DNA of 20,466 bases, taken from the IMG/VR virus record IMGVR_UViG_3300010354_000874, positions 1 through 20,466 of that record, one strand, 5' to 3'. Position 1 is the first letter of the stretch. Each line of letters begins with the position of its first letter. Of this stretch, positions 3,283 to 17,164 are shown one piece after another. Under the pieces are notes generated by a model. It was not told where the DNA came from. It ran no database searches and saw only the letters and a program-made list of their open reading frames with translations. A program made the translations under genes and the position numbers. Source of the stretch: a virus.

Positions 3283-3291
3283 GATATTTAC
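3283..3291 (-). promoter_or_regulatory. Late-type promoter element upstream of the acidic core gene
   Basis: The minus strand reads GTAAATATC about 36 bases upstream of the start at 3247. It shares the seven-base TAAATAT core with the elements before gp21, portal, the tape-measure-like gene, gp26 and the baseplate operon. It follows the weak hairpin at 3303-3329 that may end the upstream unit. Confidence 0.5.
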
Positions 3292-6402: not shown

Positions 6403-6412
6403 GATATTTATC
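6403..6412 (-). promoter_or_regulatory. Late-type promoter element upstream of portal gene
   Basis: The minus strand reads GATAAATATC, 22 bases upstream of the portal start and in the short gap after the tape-measure-like gene. Seven of eight positions match TATAAATA. It is the best placed of the minus-strand late elements and would drive the head operon. Confidence 0.65.
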
Positions 6413-6434: not shown

Positions 6435-8951
6435 TTATCCCGGAGGCATGCCAGCACCTTGTACAGGACTAGCAGATACCATGGAATCCATACTTCCAGC
6501 TATGCGCGACAACAAACCCACCATGACCTCATTTAACTCTTTGATGGATATCCAAGTTCTTTTAACGTCGGTTTGCCAGTTTTCTGCTCCATATTCAGCT
6601 GGAGTTACAGCACTGGCTCGGGGTTGACTGGCAAGTGCCAACAATCTCTGTACGCTGGACAAATCGCCAGCAGCAGGCAAGCTCACAGCACTGATAAGCT
6701 CGCGATATCCTGTGCTGAAATCTCTCAAAGCTTGGCCAGTTTCTGTGTATTGCACGTTAAGGCCCTGACGGTTTGCCAACATGTTGTCGATTTGCTCAAG
6801 AACACTCATTTGACCAGCAGCTTGTTCGGGATTTCGTTGCCCTCCAGCACCTGCTCGTGCAGCAATATCTGCAGGACTTGATCCTAATAGACCAAAGCTC
6901 AAACCGCTTAAGGCGCTGCTACCAGCATTCAGGAGTTTTCCACCAAAACCTGCACTGGGATCGGCAGTAAAACCTTGAAACGCATCAAATAAACTCATGC
7001 CTATTGCCAAGGGGCCAAACGCACGACCCAGCAATCTTCCTGCCCCGCCCAACATGCTGCCCAATCTGCCTCCTCGTCCAGCTGCTCCTGCTGGTCCACC
7101 ACCGCCCCCCATTCCCGGGATACCCGGTGCTGCACTAGGTAAACCGGCTGGTCCTACAATAGACACAAACAAAGGATCGCTTGCAGTCATACCTTTATCC
7201 ATGCCGGGAATAAGTGGTGCCTCACTGGGAATACCTTTGCGACCAAAACGCGACCGCACACCACCAATAAGCGAGCGTGTTCCACGATATGCGAGATACC
7301 CTGCTGTGGCCATACCGGCCATGCCTAGTAAACCTCCCGCCCCACTAGTCGCATCAGGACCACTTTTGGTAGGTAGTAAGCTAGCTATTAAACCTGTTTT
7401 GTCTTTGTCTGCTGTAGGAAGAAAAGAAGTAATAAACTGGTTAACACGCAGCATGACATCTGCTAGTCCACCAACCGCTGTTGATACTATTTTCAAAACT
7501 GGAGTAAGTCCCTCAGCTAGGCTTGTATAAACTCGTGTTAATTCGTTATTGAACTGGTTCATGCTGCTTTCATATTCAGTCATGATGCCTTTGCGACGTT
7601 GAAGCTCCTCTTTTTCCATCCTATCTTGATCTTCGTAACGCTTCTTTATAATGGCATAACTAACACCAGTTTCCCTTTCTTCTTTAAGAATGCGTTCGTG
7701 ACGATCTTTTTCTTGTTGTGCTACTCTTTCGGCATTTTGTATTAAATCTCCTAAAACACCAGCAACTTCTGGCATGGCAGCTAAAAGCTGCTGCCTAAGA
7801 GCCTTGGGCGCTCCCACTAGTGTCTTGGCAAAATCATTCAAGGCTTCATCAGTCATTTTGCCATCTTTTTGGAACGATTCAGCCAGATTCTGGAAACTGT
7901 TACCAAGTCCAGGAACTGTTGCAACAAGTTTAAGCATGCTGTCATCTAGCAGGCCAAAAGTCCCACCACCGGCAATATACTTTTGGATGTTGTCATACAG
8001 TAACTTGCCGCCAGCTTGTCCAAACTTTGCAAGTTGAGCGCTGGCATTAACAAAGTTTTCTCTGGCCTTGTCAGTCATTGTACTCAGTAACAAAAACGAT
8101 CCACCAGTCTTGGTAAGACTGCCAACAAAATCCAAGAGAGATTTTCTTGACATACCTGTTGCTTCACTGGCTTTGGTAATCTCGCCAATGAACCTTCTGC
8201 TGCTTCCAACTAACTGATCATTAGTCAAACTTGCAGTAATACCCGACTGTTGATAGATTTCTGCTGTTTGCAGGAATGTTTCGGCATTTTCCTGCAAACT
8301 CATGATAAATTCGCCACCACTAGATGTGGCTTTTTGGAAACTTTCTATTAATCGGGGAACACCACGACCACTAAGAGCTGCTATAGTTGTGCTGTTTTTG
8401 GTCATCAAACTGCCAAAATCTTGCAAAGTCATACCAGCTAGACTGCTGCTGGTGATTAAACCCTGTAGGCCTCCTTCCAGTCTCACCCCACTGCCATATA
8501 TATCTGTGAAAATTTTGTCCACTTCAAACATTTTGTCCACAGCCATTTTGGCAAGGCTCAAACCTAGGGAAAATTTATTCAAATATGTAATTGTTTTTTG
8601 CCATTCAGGAGCAGTTGAACTCAACTGCTGACTTAGTCCTTTACTAGCTTGACTTAGTTGTCCAAAAACTGATCCTCCGGGTCCTAGTCCTGTAGTCAAA
8701 ACTTGACTTATAGCCCCTTTGAGTTGCCAGGGCATTTTCTCAAATTTTTCAGAGAGCGTTTTTTGACCTTTATTGCCTTCCTCTGTGGCTTTGGTCTGAA
8801 CTTTAGTGGCTTGAGTTTGTTCCTCAGTTGCCTCACGCCATCTTTTCGGCAGGGCATTAAAGATTTTGTTTAAGGTAGAATCCTTGGCCCAGGAGTCATC
8901 CCCCATTTTTACATATAGTGGCTTATCTTGCCCACCTAAAGTTCCTGACAT
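6435..8951 (-). CDS. Probable tail tape-measure / baseplate hub protein (gp29-like)
   Basis: An 838-residue protein with tape-measure features. Residues about 40-75 are a charged, Gln/Glu/Lys-rich helix; the next 400 residues are mainly helical. Residues about 420-480 are strongly charged coiled coil (EKDRHERILKEERE...). There is then a hydrophobic Gly/Ala region (GLLGMAGMATAGYLAYRG) followed by Gly/Pro-rich linkers (PGMGGGGGPAGAAGRGG). A hydrophobic stretch inside a long helical tail protein suits a tape measure, which sets tail length and can enter the host membrane during DNA delivery. Its neighbour across the divergent promoters is a gp26-like hub gene, and gp29 plays the tape-measure role in T4. 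No diagnostic motif is visible and it is longer than T4 gp29. The ATG at 8951 has only a weak AGG about 14 bases away. Confidence 0.5.
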   Translation of the reverse strand: MSGTLGGQDKPLYVKMGDDSWAKDSTLNKIFNALPKRWREATEEQTQATKVQTKATEEGNKGQKTLSEKFEKMPWQLKGAISQVLTTGLGPGGSVFGQLSQASKGLSQQLSSTAPEWQKTITYLNKFSLGLSLAKMAVDKMFEVDKIFTDIYGSGVRLEGGLQGLITSSSLAGMTLQDFGSLMTKNSTTIAALSGRGVPRLIESFQKATSSGGEFIMSLQENAETFLQTAEIYQQSGITASLTNDQLVGSSRRFIGEITKASEATGMSRKSLLDFVGSLTKTGGSFLLLSTMTDKARENFVNASAQLAKFGQAGGKLLYDNIQKYIAGGGTFGLLDDSMLKLVATVPGLGNSFQNLAESFQKDGKMTDEALNDFAKTLVGAPKALRQQLLAAMPEVAGVLGDLIQNAERVAQQEKDRHERILKEERETGVSYAIIKKRYEDQDRMEKEELQRRKGIMTEYESSMNQFNNELTRVYTSLAEGLTPVLKIVSTAVGGLADVMLRVNQFITSFLPTADKDKTGLIASLLPTKSGPDATSGAGGLLGMAGMATAGYLAYRGTRSLIGGVRSRFGRKGIPSEAPLIPGMDKGMTASDPLFVSIVGPAGLPSAAPGIPGMGGGGGPAGAAGRGGRLGSMLGGAGRLLGRAFGPLAIGMSLFDAFQGFTADPSAGFGGKLLNAGSSALSGLSFGLLGSSPADIAARAGAGGQRNPEQAAGQMSVLEQIDNMLANRQGLNVQYTETGQALRDFSTGYRELISAVSLPAAGDLSSVQRLLALASQPRASAVTPAEYGAENWQTDVKRTWISIKELNEVMVGLLSRIAGSMDSMVSASPVQGAGMPPG

Positions 8952-8977
8952 TTTATAGATCTACCTAGTTTCAGCAT

Positions 8978-8987
8978 GATAAATATT
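8978..8987 (+). promoter_or_regulatory. Late-type promoter element for the gp26-like gene
   Basis: The plus strand reads GATAAATATT, 28 bases before the preferred start at 9015. It forms the left arm of a near-perfect palindrome with the minus-strand element at 8991-9000. The two elements face each other, three bases apart. Confidence 0.6.
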
Positions 8988-8990
8988 TTT

Positions 8991-9000
8991 AATATTTATG
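8991..9000 (-). promoter_or_regulatory. Late-type promoter element for the tape-measure-like gene
   Basis: The minus strand reads CATAAATATT, 40 bases upstream of the start at 8951. It is the mirror partner of the plus-strand element at 8978-8987. Transcripts from the two would overlap at their 5' ends. Confidence 0.6.
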
Positions 9001-10521: not shown

Positions 10522-10695
10522 ATGATATTTCTATCCTTGGGCACTAACGAACTTACTTCGTCACTGATATTGCCAGTATGTGGACTTGTTTATCTAATAA
10601 TGTGCCTGGTGGGTGCCTGTAAGGTTATTGTCTACCAGGAGCAATCTTTCTGGATTGCTCCCAGGGAATTTTTTTATTTACGTCTCGGTATTTGA
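10522..10695 (+). CDS. Possible small membrane protein (57 residues)
   Basis: ATG at 10522 is preceded by GGAG with a six-base spacer. The product has one strongly hydrophobic segment (residues about 14-37, SLILPVCGLVYLIMCLVGAC) flanked by polar residues, consistent with a single membrane helix. The last 71 bases overlap, on the opposite strand, the 3' end of the unknown gene ending at 10625. CCAAGG (10485-10490) and CCTTGG (10508-10513) could pair and cover part of the ribosome site. There is no recognisable family, and a hairpin at 10638-10661 lies inside the frame. It could be chance, though the spacing of the ribosome site favours translation. Confidence 0.33.
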   Translation: MIFLSLGTNELTSSLILPVCGLVYLIMCLVGACKVIVYQEQSFWIAPREFFYLRLGI

Positions 10696-11437
10696 TTAGA
10701 TATCTGTCTCGAGTGGTTCTCAAAGAGATTTGTAGATTTTCATTTTGTGTGAGATCAGGATCTATTTGACTGACAACCAAAATGTCCCAACGTGACTCTT
10801 GAATGTTTTGTTCTGTCAAAAGCAGGGGTTCGCGGCAATAGGGAATGGTTATTTCCGATCTATTTTCCAGGGCATTGTAGGTAACTTTCACCAAACTGCG
10901 TGGGATTTGCACATGGCGCTTGCTGGTCCATTCATGCTGCGGCAGCGTTTGCACAGGAGTTCTGAGTTCTTCGGTTTTTTGCGCAGCATGAAGAATGTCC
11001 GCCTGGTGACAGATTTGATTTAGTATTTCTTCTGCCATGTTGCGACGAACATCAGGATGTAAATGGCAGGTGGTTGCCAAAATGTTCATGACACTTTCCA
11101 TCCCGGAACTCATGATCCAGTTGTTTTTGTTATCAAATGCCACATGCCAACAACCGGCAATTTGTTCGGGCCAAGTTGCACGTGGCTGAGCTTTGAGCTT
11201 GTGGCTGTTCACACTGAACTGTGCGGCAAACAACCAAAGTTGTCTTTGATTATTAGACACATGCACAAAATCTTCAGGAAACGCACGCATGCGTGTTCCC
11301 AGCATTTGGCTCAACACTTGATAGTAAGCCAACTCGTTCTTGATAAAATGCGTAAGTGTACGTGCTTGGCCCGCTGAAACTGAAAGTTCAAAAGTTTTTT
11401 GCCAAGTGTTGCTGCGATTATATGCTGAATGACTCAT
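10625..11437 (-). CDS. Protein of unknown function, early-type promoter
   Basis: A 270-residue soluble protein I do not recognise. The N-terminal half is helical, with a patterned segment ARTLTHFIKNELAYYQVLSQML and then VHVSNNQRQLWLFAAQF; the C-terminal half is strand-rich (ITIPYCREPLLL, WDILVVSQID, YLIKYRDV) and ends with a basic tail. There is no signal peptide or membrane segment. An ATG at 11500 is also in frame, but it lies upstream of a sigma70-like promoter, and the ATG at 11461 falls within its -10 box; the start at 11437, with AGGA about 12 bases upstream and a leader of about 16 bases, is therefore preferred. It stands alone and is divergent from the nuclease gene. The promoter suggests early expression, as for host-takeover or DNA-metabolism genes. 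Confidence 0.7.
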   Translation of the reverse strand: MSHSAYNRSNTWQKTFELSVSAGQARTLTHFIKNELAYYQVLSQMLGTRMRAFPEDFVHVSNNQRQLWLFAAQFSVNSHKLKAQPRATWPEQIAGCWHVAFDNKNNWIMSSGMESVMNILATTCHLHPDVRRNMAEEILNQICHQADILHAAQKTEELRTPVQTLPQHEWTSKRHVQIPRSLVKVTYNALENRSEITIPYCREPLLLTEQNIQESRWDILVVSQIDPDLTQNENLQISLRTTRDRYLIKYRDVNKKIPWEQSRKIAPGRQ

Positions 11438-11459
11438 GATTATTGCTATTCCTGTAGTC

Positions 11460-11488
11460 ATTATTGTATGTTCTGAATAGTTTGTCAA
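11460..11488 (-). promoter_or_regulatory. Sigma70-type promoter for the unknown gene
   Basis: The minus strand has TTGACA (11488-11483), a 17-base spacer, and AATAAT (11465-11460): a perfect -35 and five of six -10 matches. Transcription would start near 11453 and give a short leader before the ATG at 11437. Confidence 0.7.
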
Positions 11489-11516
11489 CACACATGACAA
11501 TGTTTAGGTGAAAAAA

Positions 11517-12029
11517 ATGCCCAGTGCAGGTAAAAATAAAGGTAACACAGGCGAACGTATGATTGCCAGTTTTCTAACTGAGTTATACCAGGCTAAATTT
11601 ATAAGGGTTCCCAACAGCGGTGCGTTCTTGGGAGGTGCCAACAATCACAGACAACAACTCATGGATTCTGGCCAAATAGCCAGCTTCCGGGCTGATATTA
11701 TTCCTCCCAGCCACATGAGAGGATTGGTTATTGAAAGTAAGTTTTACAGTGAGTTTCCTTTTCACAAACTGGTTAAAAATGAAAAGATACCCCTCCTAGA
11801 TGGCTGGATAAAACAACTGGAAGAAAATATAACAGCAACAGATTTCAGTGTGGTTGTTTTCAGAATCAACAGGCAGGGCAGCTTTGCAGTGTTTGATAAA
11901 AAATGGCTGCCGCGCCTGCATGTGGAAAATCACGCCTGTTACAACCGTTATGTAATAACAGAATTTCAGTCATTGTTTGAGAACAACCGAGATGTTATTG
12001 CGGAAATAGCAAAAACTCAGGGCTCATAA
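11517..12029 (+). CDS. PD-(D/E)XK nuclease, possibly Holliday-junction resolvase-like
   Basis: A 170-residue protein with the core of a PD-(D/E)XK nuclease. Glu13 in NTGERMIASFL is the usual N-terminal helix acid, Asp60 (FRADIIPP) is the metal-binding Asp, and Glu73/Lys75 in VIESKFY are the E-x-K catalytic pair. RecB-like and resolvase-like phage nucleases share this layout, so it may act on branched or damaged DNA along with the recombination nuclease gp46/gp47 encoded next to it. It is unrelated to T4 endonuclease VII, the usual T4 resolvase. The ATG at 11517 with AGGTG six bases upstream is preferred over GTG at 11508, which is part of that ribosome site. The 3' end overlaps the convergent gp46 gene by 13 bases. 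The substrate is unknown. Confidence 0.72.
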   Translation: MPSAGKNKGNTGERMIASFLTELYQAKFIRVPNSGAFLGGANNHRQQLMDSGQIASFRADIIPPSHMRGLVIESKFYSEFPFHKLVKNEKIPLLDGWIKQLEENITATDFSVVVFRINRQGSFAVFDKKWLPRLHVENHACYNRYVITEFQSLFENNRDVIAEIAKTQGS

Positions 12030-13789
12030 CCCCAGTCAAATCGGCTGAAGTTGTCCTCTTTGATAACTGTTAAAACATTGGACACTCGTGTAACAAGTTC
12101 TTCTCTGTGACTTACCAGGAAAACATTTTTATTTCTGTCACGGCTGTGAGTTTTGAGTATTTCCACGCTTTTTTCCAAGCCTTGTTGATCTAGACCCTGA
12201 TCCAGCAGTTCATCAACAAAAATCAAGTTGATAGCTTGGTTGTTGTTTTCCCAGATATCACGAAAGCTCCAGCTAAGGCTGAGTATTAAACGAGTGCGTT
12301 CACCTCTACTAAGTTGGTCAAAATCCATCTCGGTGCCAAGGTGAGTGATTTCCACACCAAGATCGTTTTGAAACTTCACTTGATGTGGCAACCCCACTCG
12401 ACTGAGATAGTCATCCAGTCGTGTGTTCAAATAGGCAAGATTTTGATCAATAATCTTTTTTCTGATAAAACTGTCTTTGCTAACAAGTAACTTGAGCAAA
12501 AACTCCTGATGCTCGCGCTGACTGTTGAGCTGATTGAGAATGTTGTGATTAACCGGCTGTAATGTAGCTGTTAAACTGTCTTGTTGATCCAGATAGGGGT
12601 TGGTTTCCTGTTGCAGACGACAGAGTTCCTGTTGGAGGTTTTCCATGCTGTTGAGGTGACTGAGTGCTTGTTCCAGATTGCTATATAAAGTTTCTGGAAT
12701 CACAAAAGCCTGTTCAGCCTGCTGTATTTCTGAAATATAAGCTTGATGTTGTGCAATCTCCTGTGTTACAGGCTGTAGTTGTTCATCCAGTTGCAGAAGT
12801 TGCTGTTCAAGATTATTTAAAATGTTTTGGTGATTGTGATCGCTTAACCCCTGTTGGCACATGGGGCATTGAGCCTGTTGTGCTTGTTGATAACTGGCCA
12901 GAGCCCTGTCAAGTTGAGATTGCAGGTTGCTGAGCAAACGATTTTTGCCAGTTAGCAATCGCTGTTGTTCAGATCTAGCTGATTGAAGTTTGGCAAGATC
13001 TTGAAGATCTCTGTGTGCTTGAATCTCCAGTTCAATGTCCAACTGACTCATGCTGGCCAGGGCAGCTTGTATGTCTTGAATCTTTTCCTGATGTTGAGTT
13101 TGCCATTTTTCACTGCGAGTATTGAGATCAGCCAGTGTGCGAAGTATTTTTTCGTTGCTGGCTTCCAGAGTTTTAATACGTAGATCTTCTTGATCTTGTT
13201 GTATTCGGGTTTCTCTAATCCGTTCTTTCAGTGTTTCAGCTTTGGTGCTGAGCATGGTAATCATCAGGAGTTCTTCGATTATTTCCCGTTGTTTTCCAGC
13301 ACCCTGGCTTAAAAATGGCAGTGTGTAAGTATTCAAGGCTACTACATTACAGAACATGGTATGACTCATGCCCAGCACGGCTTCCACTTGTTTTTGTGTT
13401 TCGCGGTTTTCACCCTGTGCCTCATCAGTATCAGGAGCGTTTACCACGTTGTCATTTACAATAAACCTAAAGAAGGCAGGCCGGCGTCCACGTTCAATGC
13501 GATATGTTTGACCATCGCGACTGAACTCCAGACTCACACTCATGTTTTTGCTGTTGATGCGATTTACCAAGTTGTCTTTTTTAATATTGCTTAGAGCTTG
13601 ACCATACAGTGCATAGCTAATGGCATTTAACAGGGTGGTTTTACCAACGCCGTTGCGATTGCCCTGTCCTCCCATGTCCAAATTCTCACCAAGCACCAGA
13701 GTAAAGCCACTGCGAGTTAAATCCACAGTTTGGGGCACTGACCCCACACTGAGAAAGTTTTTGATTTCCACATTGTGATATTTCAGCAT
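12017..13789 (-). CDS. 46: Recombination nuclease ATPase subunit (gp46, Rad50/SbcC-like)
   Basis: A 590-residue SMC-type ATPase that partners gp47. Seen: a Walker A region GENLDMGGQGNRNGVGKTT (34-52), a long coiled coil of about 180-470, a zinc-hook CPMC (308-311) at its apex, the signature LSRGERTR (493-500), Walker B LIFVDELLD (522-530) and VSHREE (559-564). The order matches Rad50/SbcC and T4 gp46, whose usual size is similar. In the family, gp46/gp47 resects DNA ends for recombination-dependent replication. Start ATG 13789 overlaps the gp47 stop as TAATG, indicating translational coupling and balanced production. It is the third gene of the gp55-gp47-gp46 operon. Confidence 0.95.
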   Translation of the reverse strand: MLKYHNVEIKNFLSVGSVPQTVDLTRSGFTLVLGENLDMGGQGNRNGVGKTTLLNAISYALYGQALSNIKKDNLVNRINSKNMSVSLEFSRDGQTYRIERGRRPAFFRFIVNDNVVNAPDTDEAQGENRETQKQVEAVLGMSHTMFCNVVALNTYTLPFLSQGAGKQREIIEELLMITMLSTKAETLKERIRETRIQQDQEDLRIKTLEASNEKILRTLADLNTRSEKWQTQHQEKIQDIQAALASMSQLDIELEIQAHRDLQDLAKLQSARSEQQRLLTGKNRLLSNLQSQLDRALASYQQAQQAQCPMCQQGLSDHNHQNILNNLEQQLLQLDEQLQPVTQEIAQHQAYISEIQQAEQAFVIPETLYSNLEQALSHLNSMENLQQELCRLQQETNPYLDQQDSLTATLQPVNHNILNQLNSQREHQEFLLKLLVSKDSFIRKKIIDQNLAYLNTRLDDYLSRVGLPHQVKFQNDLGVEITHLGTEMDFDQLSRGERTRLILSLSWSFRDIWENNNQAINLIFVDELLDQGLDQQGLEKSVEILKTHSRDRNKNVFLVSHREELVTRVSNVLTVIKEDNFSRFDWGYEP

Positions 13790-14811
13790 TACAGACTCTG
13801 ATAAATTTCCACTAGTTTTTTACAGTCAATGGTCTTGCTTTCAATACTGTTTAAGTGACTTATCACAATAGTGTCAACGCTTTGAAAGTCTATTTCTTCA
13901 TCTTGTAGCTGAGAAACTTCATCACTTGCAGCAGTTTGAAATGCCAGTTCACTGGTGGGCCATGATGCTTGCAATACATCTCTTAAAAACGTCATGTCCA
14001 GATAATCAAAGTCTCGGGGTATTTGTACCCTGACATGATTTTCAGGTTTTAAATACTTGGCAGGATCATACAGGAGATCCTCTAGTGACAACACTCGATA
14101 TCTAGGAGCCTGCGGCCAAGTTTGATATCTGGGCTCTTGATTTTTTTGCCAAAACATCATGCCGCGATCATCGTCCCAAACGTCACTGTAATTGTGAGGA
14201 AAAGCATTGCCAATATAATGCACATTGCCTTGTATTTGCCGTTTGTGAAAATGTCCACTAAAGACATATTTCTGTTTGCGGAAATGACCACCATTTAGTT
14301 GTCCGTGGTCAGGCATTTCCACCATGGCATTCATTTTAAATCTGGGAAGCTCAAAATGTCCCCAAATATAAGGAGTGGAAATCTCAGTGACTTTTTTCCA
14401 CTCATCACCAACTAACCAGGGCACGAACGTATGGTCTCCCACTGTGGTGATTTTATCAATCAAGTGAATATTGTCAAACTCTTGAATATAAGGGATGCTG
14501 TGTATTTCCAATTTGTCTCGAAAATACAAATCATGATTGCCAATTATAAAAAATACATCATCAAAGGCAGCACTAAGCAAGCGCAAACCAGCCACACTGT
14601 AGTTCAGCGTGGAAATATTAATGGCACTGCGAACATGATGCCAGTCTCCTAGAAAAACACATGTTTTACAACCTTGTTTTTGAGCTTGTTCTATAAACCA
14701 CAACAGAAACTGTTCGCATTGCATGTTATGCTCGCGACTGTTGTTTTTCATTCCAAAATGCAGATCTGTAAAAGCTGCAATGGTGTCAAGATTAGGGGTG
14801 CGATTTGTCAT
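13789..14811 (-). CDS. 47: Recombination nuclease subunit (gp47, Mre11/SbcD-like)
   Basis: A 340-residue calcineurin-like phosphoesterase. The metal-binding motifs are all present in order: DLH (16-18), GDWHH (55-59), GNHD (91-94), GHFE (151-154) and GHFHKR (186-191). It is the nuclease subunit that acts with gp46 on double-strand ends. It ends one base into the gp46 start. The ATG at 14811 has no clear Shine-Dalgarno sequence; instead a perfect 7-bp inverted repeat (14812-14828) abuts the start, so translation may be controlled or coupled to gp55 upstream. T4 also places gene 47 near gene 55, with other genes between. Confidence 0.95.
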   Translation of the reverse strand: MTNRTPNLDTIAAFTDLHFGMKNNSREHNMQCEQFLLWFIEQAQKQGCKTCVFLGDWHHVRSAINISTLNYSVAGLRLLSAAFDDVFFIIGNHDLYFRDKLEIHSIPYIQEFDNIHLIDKITTVGDHTFVPWLVGDEWKKVTEISTPYIWGHFELPRFKMNAMVEMPDHGQLNGGHFRKQKYVFSGHFHKRQIQGNVHYIGNAFPHNYSDVWDDDRGMMFWQKNQEPRYQTWPQAPRYRVLSLEDLLYDPAKYLKPENHVRVQIPRDFDYLDMTFLRDVLQASWPTSELAFQTAASDEVSQLQDEEIDFQSVDTIVISHLNSIESKTIDCKKLVEIYQSL

Positions 14812-14861: not shown

Positions 14862-16127
14862 TTATTCAGCAGTTTTTTGGGATATTTCGTTTTCTGTTTG
14901 TCTTGTGTAGCTGGGAGTAGATCCATGCATGATTAACAAGTCATCACGAATGTTTTGGTTTCTTTTTTCTGTGTTTAGTATGCGAGTAAAAGAGTTCTGG
15001 ACAGCACTGGTATAATATGCAAAGGGGTTTTCACTGCGACTTTCATCAAACTGAAGTCCAATCTGGCTTAGCTGCAACAGGGCTTGTCCCTGCATTTCTT
15101 CATTATATGTATTGCCAGTAAGGAAGATTTTGCCGTTGCGGCGAGCCACCCATGATCCCAGTAATGTTTTAGGACACCACACTAACCCAGAATAGAGCAG
15201 ATTGGGTTTTTTCCAATCCCCCTGGAAATCTATGTCTTGAGCTTTTACAGACATAATGTCTTGTTCCAAACAATCAACGTCCAGTGCTGGAGCTTGTACA
15301 AATATTTCATCATGAGGTTTTAAATTTTCCACAGCTATCAATCCTCTATCAGTAACCAGCTTGTGACCTGGTGTGATTACACTGTCGATTAAAGCATGAT
15401 TTAGTTTGAATACCGGTCCTGTGTAATCTTTTTTGACAACATCAATAACCGGCGTCCAAACACAACAGTTATCTGAATAACTCAGAACCAAATCTTGATT
15501 AGTTAGTTCATTGTGTTTTAGCCAACCACGTTGTGTTAGAGCCTGAGTTTGATCATCAACACAATACCCTCTCCAGTTGCCTTTTTTGCTATATTTTTCC
15601 ACTAGTTTCATAAACATCATGGCAAGCTTGGGAGTAATGAATCCGTGGTTGTTACAAAACTCACCATTTTGTAAACCACCTCGCCAGTGACTTTTTCCCA
15701 CGCACAACCAAGTGTCATTTATGTAAACATAATGCTGGAAAGCAGGAAAGTTGATTTTAACATGGCGTTCCGCTGTGGTTTTGCCTGTGGTGTGTTTTAC
15801 AGGATGTGGCGGAATGTGATCATATGTCATCAACCTAACCACAACTTGTTCTATATCCAGACTTTCAGGATCAATTTTACAAATGGGATTTTTTTCACCA
15901 CGACTTTGTGCTTCTTTTCGCAACCGCTGAGTTTGTATCTCGGCTTTTTTGATTTTTGCTTGTTGAAGAGTTTCCGGGCTTATGAGATTTAGATCGTGTG
16001 TGATAATATCAAAGTTACTGTAAATATTTTCCAAGTAGCTGCAATAGGTATTTTTGCTCGCGTGTATTTGTTCTAACAGTTCACGATTGGTTAAGTATTT
16101 GATTTTAATTGCAGCGGTTATAGTCAA
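14862..16127 (-). CDS. 55: Late-transcription sigma factor gp55, interrupted by an intein
   Basis: A 421-residue precursor. Residues 1-188 and 340-421 form the 270-residue extein and 189-339 a mini-intein. The joined sequence KLVEKYSKKGNWRGY/TYNEEM, then the NPFAYYTSAVQNSF region, matches the sigma-like core of T4 gp55 (for example FSGYT...EM and NPHAYIT). gp55 redirects RNA polymerase to late promoters with the sliding clamp. Residues 1 to about 155 are an added N-terminal region absent from T4 gp55 (185 residues), with a segment YLTNRELLEQIHASKNTYC. No good ATG exists; TTG at 16127 follows GGAG by seven bases, with an in-frame stop just upstream, so TTG is preferred. A sigma70 promoter lies upstream. 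The gene is first in an operon with gp47 and gp46. Confidence 0.9.
   Translation of the reverse strand: MTITAAIKIKYLTNRELLEQIHASKNTYCSYLENIYSNFDIITHDLNLISPETLQQAKIKKAEIQTQRLRKEAQSRGEKNPICKIDPESLDIEQVVVRLMTYDHIPPHPVKHTTGKTTAERHVKINFPAFQHYVYINDTWLCVGKSHWRGGLQNGEFCNNHGFITPKLAMMFMKLVEKYSKKGNWRGYCVDDQTQALTQRGWLKHNELTNQDLVLSYSDNCCVWTPVIDVVKKDYTGPVFKLNHALIDSVITPGHKLVTDRGLIAVENLKPHDEIFVQAPALDVDCLEQDIMSVKAQDIDFQGDWKKPNLLYSGLVWCPKTLLGSWVARRNGKIFLTGNTYNEEMQGQALLQLSQIGLQFDESRSENPFAYYTSAVQNSFTRILNTEKRNQNIRDDLLIMHGSTPSYTRQTENEISQKTAE
15111..15563 (-). other. Mini-intein inside gp55
   Basis: The 151-residue segment runs from Cys189 to Asn339 of the precursor. Its block A is CVDDQTQALTQRGWL, followed by LTNQDLVLSY. 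Block B contains TPGH with His255. The end reads VARRNGKIFLTGN, the usual block F/G pattern, with Thr340 as +1 nucleophile. The penultimate position is Gly rather than His, which also occurs in other inteins. Between blocks B and F there are only about 50 residues, so no homing endonuclease is present. It should remove itself after translation by protein splicing; the insertion is at a conserved GY|T point of the sigma core, where it would block function until spliced. Confidence 0.88.
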
Positions 16128-16196: not shown

Positions 16197-16206
16197 AATA
16201 AATATA
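16197..16206 (+). promoter_or_regulatory. Late-type promoter element for the baseplate operon
   Basis: The plus strand reads AATAAATATA, 23 bases before the start of the baseplate gene at 16229. It is divergent from the gp55 promoter 18 bases to the left, so one intergenic region carries an early promoter and a late one. Confidence 0.62.
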
Positions 16207-16228: not shown

Positions 16229-17164
16229 ATGGTTGACATTGTAGGACCTTCGGTAGTCCCGGACATAGCACCTGCTGCCCCCAGTGCATACGAAAGACTT
16301 CGTGATCGTTTGGATTTTTCTGGAGCCCTGCGTGAGCGTTTTGATAGCCAGCTGGATGACCGACGGGTCGCACGTCAGTTTAGTGATCGTGGTGCGGGCG
16401 CCGAGGCTGCCGCAGCAACTTCAGCTGCTTTGTTGGCGCAACAAGCTGCTTTGGCAGGTTTAAACCCTGACAAAGAAATGAGCGGAAACCAAAACAACGC
16501 AGCACTTGGGCAAGCTCCTAGTGAAATAGATTTGAGGGCAAGATTGCGTGCTAAACCCAATGTGTATGCATATAACCTTTTATATGCAGATAATCCCTGG
16601 ATGAACTTGCAAAACTATGGAGGCATGATTTGGCCCTATACTCCCACTATTACATACAGCCAAGATGTTACATATGAGAGCATGGGGTCAGTACATACCA
16701 ATCAGGAAATGATGGCTTATACAAGGACGCCAGCAACCAAACTAACAGTGGCTGGTGCTTTTAGCAGTCAAACACAACGCGAAGCACTGTATAATTTGGC
16801 TTGCATACATTTTCTACGTTTGGTAACTAAAATGAGTTTTGGTTCCAGCCAAAATCCTCAGCCCGGCACACCGCCGCCTGTGCTTTACTTTGATGCTCAT
16901 GGTGGTGGTATGTTTAAAAGTCTGCCAGTTGTTGTCACCAATTTCAGTATCACATTACCCAACGAACCCGATTATGTCACTGTTCCTGCTGCTGTAAGTC
17001 AGGGCACTTTGCCAAAAGAATGGACTACCCGAGTTCCTGCACTTTTTGATATCACAGTATCACTTACGGTGCAGCACACACCCAAGCGCCTACGCACCTG
17101 GAGTATAGATGAATTTCGTTCTGGTGATTACATACGTGGCACAGCTCAAGCAGGTTGGATATGA
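16229..17164 (+). CDS. Baseplate tail-tube cap-like protein (gp48/gp54-like)
   Basis: A 311-residue structural protein. Residues 1-90 are Ala-rich and probably flexible (DRGAGAEAAAATSAALLAQQAAL). The folded part starts near residue 108 (KPNVYAYNLLYADNPWMNLQNYG), followed by MMAYTRTPATKLTVAGAFSSQT, MFKSLPVVVTNFSITLPNEPDYV and FDITVSLTVQHTPKRLRTW. This pattern is that of proteins which close the baseplate centre and start tail-tube growth (T4 gp48 and gp54 are of this size and position). The ATG at 16229 follows GGAG by ten bases and a late-type promoter. The stop overlaps the next start (ATGA), so it heads an operon with gp53. Whether it corresponds to gp48 or gp54 cannot be told. Confidence 0.55.
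   Translation: MVDIVGPSVVPDIAPAAPSAYERLRDRLDFSGALRERFDSQLDDRRVARQFSDRGAGAEAAAATSAALLAQQAALAGLNPDKEMSGNQNNAALGQAPSEIDLRARLRAKPNVYAYNLLYADNPWMNLQNYGGMIWPYTPTITYSQDVTYESMGSVHTNQEMMAYTRTPATKLTVAGAFSSQTQREALYNLACIHFLRLVTKMSFGSSQNPQPGTPPPVLYFDAHGGGMFKSLPVVVTNFSITLPNEPDYVTVPAAVSQGTLPKEWTTRVPALFDITVSLTVQHTPKRLRTWSIDEFRSGDYIRGTAQAGWI

Follow-up and report, generated by a model that had tools for sequence, protein, structure and literature searches.

A mini-intein at a conserved junction of the late sigma factor gp55, and its relatives in other phages

Described inteins and the interrupted gp55 gene

Class 1 inteins usually have a histidine at the penultimate position, although it is not obligatory, and class 3 inteins are marked by a WCT triplet, with its tryptophan in block B. 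Mycobacteriophage class 1 inteins with a penultimate glycine, such as that of the Bethlehem gp51 RDF, combine Cys1 with a terminal Gly-Asn (PMC5050341). Kelly et al. found the penultimate histidine to be poorly conserved among class 1 inteins of mycobacteriophages, and in their work an intein with its native glycine spliced faster than the histidine mutant; a penultimate glycine impairs splicing in some inteins, as discussed in the same paper (PMC5050341). T4 gp55 (7d7c, 7d7d) has 185 aa and no intein. Its promoter-pocket residues in the cryo-EM structure include L54 and R57, and the RNAP clamp helices are bound by E70, D74, and E77 (PMC7892883). The gene described here is a gp55 homolog interrupted by an intein that shares Cys1 and the terminal Gly-Asn with these mycobacteriophage inteins. 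It differs from the Bethlehem gp51 intein, which is in another host protein and has retained its endonuclease (PMC5050341), in being a mini-intein.

The window is the whole stretch of viral DNA analysed, 20,466 nucleotides long. On its minus strand, the ORF at 14862-16127 starts with TTG and runs for 421 codons without an internal stop, and its translation and PHROG matches identify it as an interrupted gene for a T4-type late sigma factor, gp55. Homology to gp55 is present on both sides of the insert, as shown by PHROG and by tblastn matches to annotated late sigma genes. The N-extein (15564-16127, minus strand) has 188 residues ending in GNWRGY, was delimited with uninterrupted homologs, and matches PHROG 12791 (sigma factor for late transcription, E 7e-79). 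The C-extein (14862-15110, minus strand) begins at Thr340, the +1 residue, and contains the rest of the sigma-R2 homology region, the C-terminus, and the stop; its residues 340-417 match PHROG 234 (late sigma transcription factor, E 1e-15). The neighboring genes are gp47 (13789-14811) and gp46 (12017-13789). When the 151 residues between the exteins are removed in silico, the product is a 270-residue gp55 resembling those of phages in which the site is empty.

The gp55 of this clade is longer than that of T4, whose N-terminal part is far shorter: the part encoded by window positions 15564-16127, ahead of the insertion site, exceeds its T4 counterpart by about 125 residues. The extra part is covered by PHROG 12791, and its fold was modelled confidently over approximately residues 20-165 in the model of the precursor. 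Elsewhere in the window, a 291-residue ORF (10625-11500, minus strand) had no PHROG match at E 0.01. It almost abuts a resolvase-like gene (11508-12029) in divergent orientation.

The insert itself (15111-15563, minus strand) is in frame, 453 nt long, and spans codons 189-339, from Cys1 to Asn151 of the intein. It was delimited by translation, homologs, and fold. An initial annotation, made from the sequence alone, had given these coordinates, the 151 residues, Cys189 and Asn339 as the ends, and a spliced length of 270 residues, and translation reproduced all of them. The annotation had also equated the GY/T junction (the slash marks the insertion site) with FSGYT in T4, and T4 gp55 indeed reads NFSGYTQ there. 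The junction falls between Y63 and T64 in T4 numbering.

The motifs of an intein are complete in the insert. Block A, CVDDQTQALTQRGW, with the nucleophile Cys1, forms its start (15522-15563, minus strand). The block B region, DSVITPGHKLVTD, covers residues 60-72 (15348-15386, minus strand), includes Thr64 and His67, and lies around the internal sequence SVITPGHKLVT. Blocks F and G, VWCPKTLLGSWVARRNGKIFLTGN, cover residues 128-151 (15111-15182, minus strand) with Cys130, Gly150, and Asn151; this C-terminal part reads VWCP...RRNGKIFLTGN and is followed by the +1 Thr. DSVITPGHKLVT is present within the insert. No homing endonuclease domain is found in the 151 residues. At the corresponding place there is a short linker of about 21 residues (approximately residues 93-113; 15225-15287, minus strand), where the aligned full-length relatives have a LAGLIDADG-type endonuclease of about 180 residues.

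Splicing residues and fold of the insert

The insert alone matched no family in Pfam or PHROG. Against PDB sequences, phmmer found the Spl DnaX mini-intein as the best match (7cfv, E 0.0015, or 0.0005 with an 80-row profile), although the host protein of that intein is the cyanobacterial DnaX. The AlphaFold2 model of the insert, for which the input alignment consisted of 80 gp55 inteins, has a pLDDT of 95.2 and a pTM of 0.89. When the model was compared with solved structures by VIA-align, 89 chains had Z of at least 5, and almost all of the matches listed were inteins or Hint domains. The top matches listed were AceL NrdHF (6zgq, Z 18.3), Ssp DnaB (1mi8, 15.8), Npu DnaB (4o1r, 15.6), and NrdJ-1 (15.2). 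Solved inteins matched over the whole length of the model at Z 12-18, and thus the insert has the Hint fold.

Eleven positions are invariant in the 80 aligned gp55 inteins: Cys1, Thr10, Gly13, Ser28, Gly49, His67, Trp129, Cys130, Thr133, Arg142, and Asn151. Thr64 and the penultimate Gly150 are each present in 79 of the 80 and Thr149 in 76. The residues expected of an intein are all found in the window copy (Cys1, T64-P-G-H67, Asn151, and Thr340), with Gly150 in place of the penultimate histidine usual in class 1. Since phage inteins tolerate a penultimate glycine (PMC5050341), Gly150 was not counted against class 1 membership. To look for the block B tryptophan of class 3, we took its position as the second residue after His67. 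This residue, number 69, is Leu, Phe, Ile, or Met, and Trp occurs in only one of the 80 inteins. Class 1 is the most likely splicing route, judging from these residues. The 421-residue precursor would be translated, and the 151-residue Hint-fold domain would cut itself out by an acyl shift at Cys1, transesterification to the +1 Thr, and cyclization of Asn151. The exteins would then be ligated into the 270-residue gp55.

Both candidate nucleophiles, Cys1 and the block F Cys130, are fixed in the 80 inteins. The element would also be an intein under a class 3-like or hybrid route, in which Cys130 forms a branched thioester. In line with such a route are Cys130 in all 80 and Thr149 in 76, and the closest solved fold among the matches listed, the class 3 AceL NrdHF intein (138 residues aligned, 15% identity), exceeds the next match by 18.3 to 15.8 in Z. 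However, AceL NrdHF is a split intein, and the gp55 inteins differ from it in keeping Cys1, in 80 of 80, and in having no block B tryptophan. We consider this route unlikely.

The mini-intein is under purifying selection and is less constrained than the gp55 exteins. Its pairwise dN/dS (Nei-Gojobori) was 0.14 against L006 and 0.21 against L004, the latter value being rough because dS was near saturation, while the exteins gave 0.02-0.08 in the same comparisons. These values bear on whether the insert is broken, with gp55 working unspliced or as two pieces or its gene decaying as a pseudogene. The non-canonical penultimate glycine and the lost endonuclease could be read in this way, but every splicing residue is intact, the same glycine is shared by almost all relatives, the Hint fold was modelled confidently, and both intein and exteins are constrained. 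A broken insert is thus scarcely credible.

Inteins at the gp55 site in other phages

Relatives were collected by a scan of viral contigs with the precursor, wider scans, and an HMM pass. At least 82 distinct gp55 inteins of 138-346 aa were found, all at one site, after a WRGY-type motif and before Ser or Thr. A chance insert is excluded, because about 80 homologs at the same site share the invariant catalytic residues. The initial annotation had proposed a mini-intein in gp55 at GY/T without an endonuclease, and the motifs, the fold match, and the homologs at the same site bear this out, the annotation's suggested search of gp55 sequences for an insertion there having yielded the 82. It would have given way had gp55 homologs carried the 151 residues as a functional domain. 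In fact, homologs with an empty site read straight through WRGY/TY, and the conserved residues are those of splicing.

Three states occur at this single site. Empty-site genes (for example L018 and L024-L033) read NWRGY/TYNDEMQ and similar. Full-length inteins of about 330 aa are found in L007-L017, L019-L021, L036, and L039, among others, and mini-inteins in L003-L005 and L022. The majority of the gp55 inteins are 311-346 aa long with a LAGLIDADG-type middle, and a loose block C motif is present in 58 of the 71 that exceed 300 aa. About nine are shortened, with lengths of 138, 147, 151 (the window copy), 151, 152, 167, 180, 236, and 255 aa. Pfam LAGLIDADG_3 matches the full-length relatives weakly, mostly below the cut-off and once above it. 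Pfam Intein_splicing gave only sub-threshold matches in the relatives and none in the window copy. Such weak detection may be the reason that no intein is noted when these genes are deposited.

One gp55 intein comes from an isolate. Synechococcus phage B23 (MN695335.1), a cyanophage of the Kyanoviridae, has a 340-aa intein in b23_0289 (gp289) at the same gp55 junction (NFANY/C...LTGN/SY). Over the shared splicing domain it is 39% identical to the window intein; in contrast to the latter, it has kept a LAGLIDADG-type domain. The entry calls the protein hypothetical, adding 'phage T4-like gp55', and the intein is unannotated. No gp55 intein was described in the open literature searched, and gp55 as an intein host protein appears unreported in that literature. 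The initial annotation had likewise cited none, but the window copy is no one-off, given the other inteins at the site, that of B23 included.

Two further observations concern related sequences. L136 (3001-3948) encodes a gp55-like protein with an NFIGY/C junction, and its intein runs toward the contig end; the C-terminal end of this intein was not found. Beyond gp55, related splicing domains (314-351 aa) are inserted in other genes of phages or prophages (L148, L181, L182-L186, L187, L189, L197-L201, L203, and L204). Most of them end in WCP...RR...GN or HN, and some of their flanks resemble motifs of terminase or DNA polymerase I.

In trees, the window and L003 mini-inteins form one clade (support 100/100), while the 138-aa shortened intein groups with the 340-aa intein of B23 (100/99). 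A single origin of six shortened inteins was rejected by the AU test (p = 0.00044, with long branches in play), indicating that the endonuclease was lost more than once. The window, L003, and L008 inteins as one clade were not rejected (p = 0.565), and the window intein may thus descend within its own lineage from a full-length form like that of L008. Discordance between intein and extein trees had been suggested for the window's clade by 100-row trees as proof of horizontal transfer, and was dropped after the AU test. Accounting for the three states on the extein tree takes at least 22 changes, and the N-extein of the empty-site L018 is about 89% identical to that of L015, which carries a 329-aa intein. 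Such a patchy distribution is what would be expected of intein gain, homing, and loss.

We also considered recent movement of the mini-intein, which is about 94% identical in DNA to that of L006. However, positions of approximately 14600-14717 are equally similar, and ordinary mosaicism suffices. L006 (1-700) aligns with window positions 15557-14860, and a mosaic boundary between these related phages lies within gp55: the intein and the first part of the C-extein are about 94% identical, while beyond the boundary the remainder of the C-extein and the neighboring genes are mostly 70-90% identical. Codon-restricted junction patterns found three occupied and at least 120 empty sites among the matches listed. 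The occupied and empty sets differ in junction codons, and therefore an occupancy fraction from these patterns was dropped. The junction Gly codon was GGG in 21 of 65 occupied and 12 of 118 empty sites (counts uncorrected for kinship).

Taken as a whole, the element itself is conventional, a homing intein with its decay products, widespread at the gp55 site. We are highly confident in reading the window insert as a mini-intein left over, without its endonuclease, from a homing intein that invaded gp55 at one highly conserved codon junction; it would excise itself and probably persists since gp55 needs splicing. The mini form would have arisen by loss of the LAGLIDADG-type part. It would then have been kept, as a presumably essential gene would not survive inexact removal of the insert or a failure to splice.

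Late transcription and the place of splicing in it

The window's phage probably operates a gp55-type late program, because TAAATAT precedes structural genes. This is the most upstream-enriched 7-mer in the window, and 5 of its 7 copies lie no more than 60 nt ahead of a same-strand gene. One late promoter-like copy (16199-16205, plus strand) precedes the structural gene at 16229, and those at 2129-2135, 3284-3290, 6404-6410, and 8992-8998 (minus strand) likewise lie at most 60 nt before structural genes. The total of 7 is a modest excess over the 3.05 in shuffles and was reached by 5 of 100 shuffles. The exact T4 late promoter TATAAATA does not occur in the window. At 8978-9000 there is an inverted pair of late promoter-like sites, ATAAATATT...AATATTTAT, which separates the minus-strand gene at 6435-8951 from a gene near 8976 on the plus strand. 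The start of the latter gene's ORF coincides in part with the plus-strand copy, and thus the true start may lie further downstream.

On T4 gp55, the insert sits between the promoter-pocket set (L54, R57) and the RNAP clamp set (E70, D74, E77), and the precursor model places it between helices 166-182 and 343-359. Since the sigma-R2 homology core is split in this way before splicing, unspliced gp55 should be inactive as a sigma factor.

This position, dividing the core that binds RNAP and the promoter, raises the question, already posed in the initial annotation as a post-translational delay or condition sensing, of whether the intein is a regulatory device, with slow or conditional splicing (redox, metal, or temperature) delaying late transcription until gp55 matures. 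Several shortened, endonuclease-free inteins persist, a change of the penultimate residue shifted the splicing rate of a phage intein (PMC5050341), and conditional splicing is known elsewhere, for example in mycobacterial DnaB (PMC6195587, PMC7360933). On the other hand, related phages are empty, full-length, or mini at the site, so the gp55 program needs no intein, and the full-length majority suggests homing rather than benefit. Purifying selection is accounted for if splicing simply has to occur. Because an essential gene sheds an intein only by precise deletion, neither persistence nor constraint requires a regulatory role, and we consider such a role very unlikely. Its stronger form, in which the gp55 intein was domesticated as a post-translational gate and endonuclease-free forms arose repeatedly and were kept for slow or condition-dependent splicing that times late transcription, is highly improbable.

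With a conventional mini-intein as the preferred reading, the known intein hosts come to include gp55, a transcription factor specific to phages. One site holds inteins in very diverse T4-type late sigma factors, from the kind in jumbo phages to that in cyanophages, and intein-bearing gp55 genes enter the databases unannotated. Close relatives in which the site is empty or holds a full-length or shortened intein lend themselves well to studying intein gain, homing, and loss at a single locus. Since late transcription should need spliced gp55, the system also offers a clear-cut way of asking whether a switch in the life cycle is delayed or made conditional by phage inteins.
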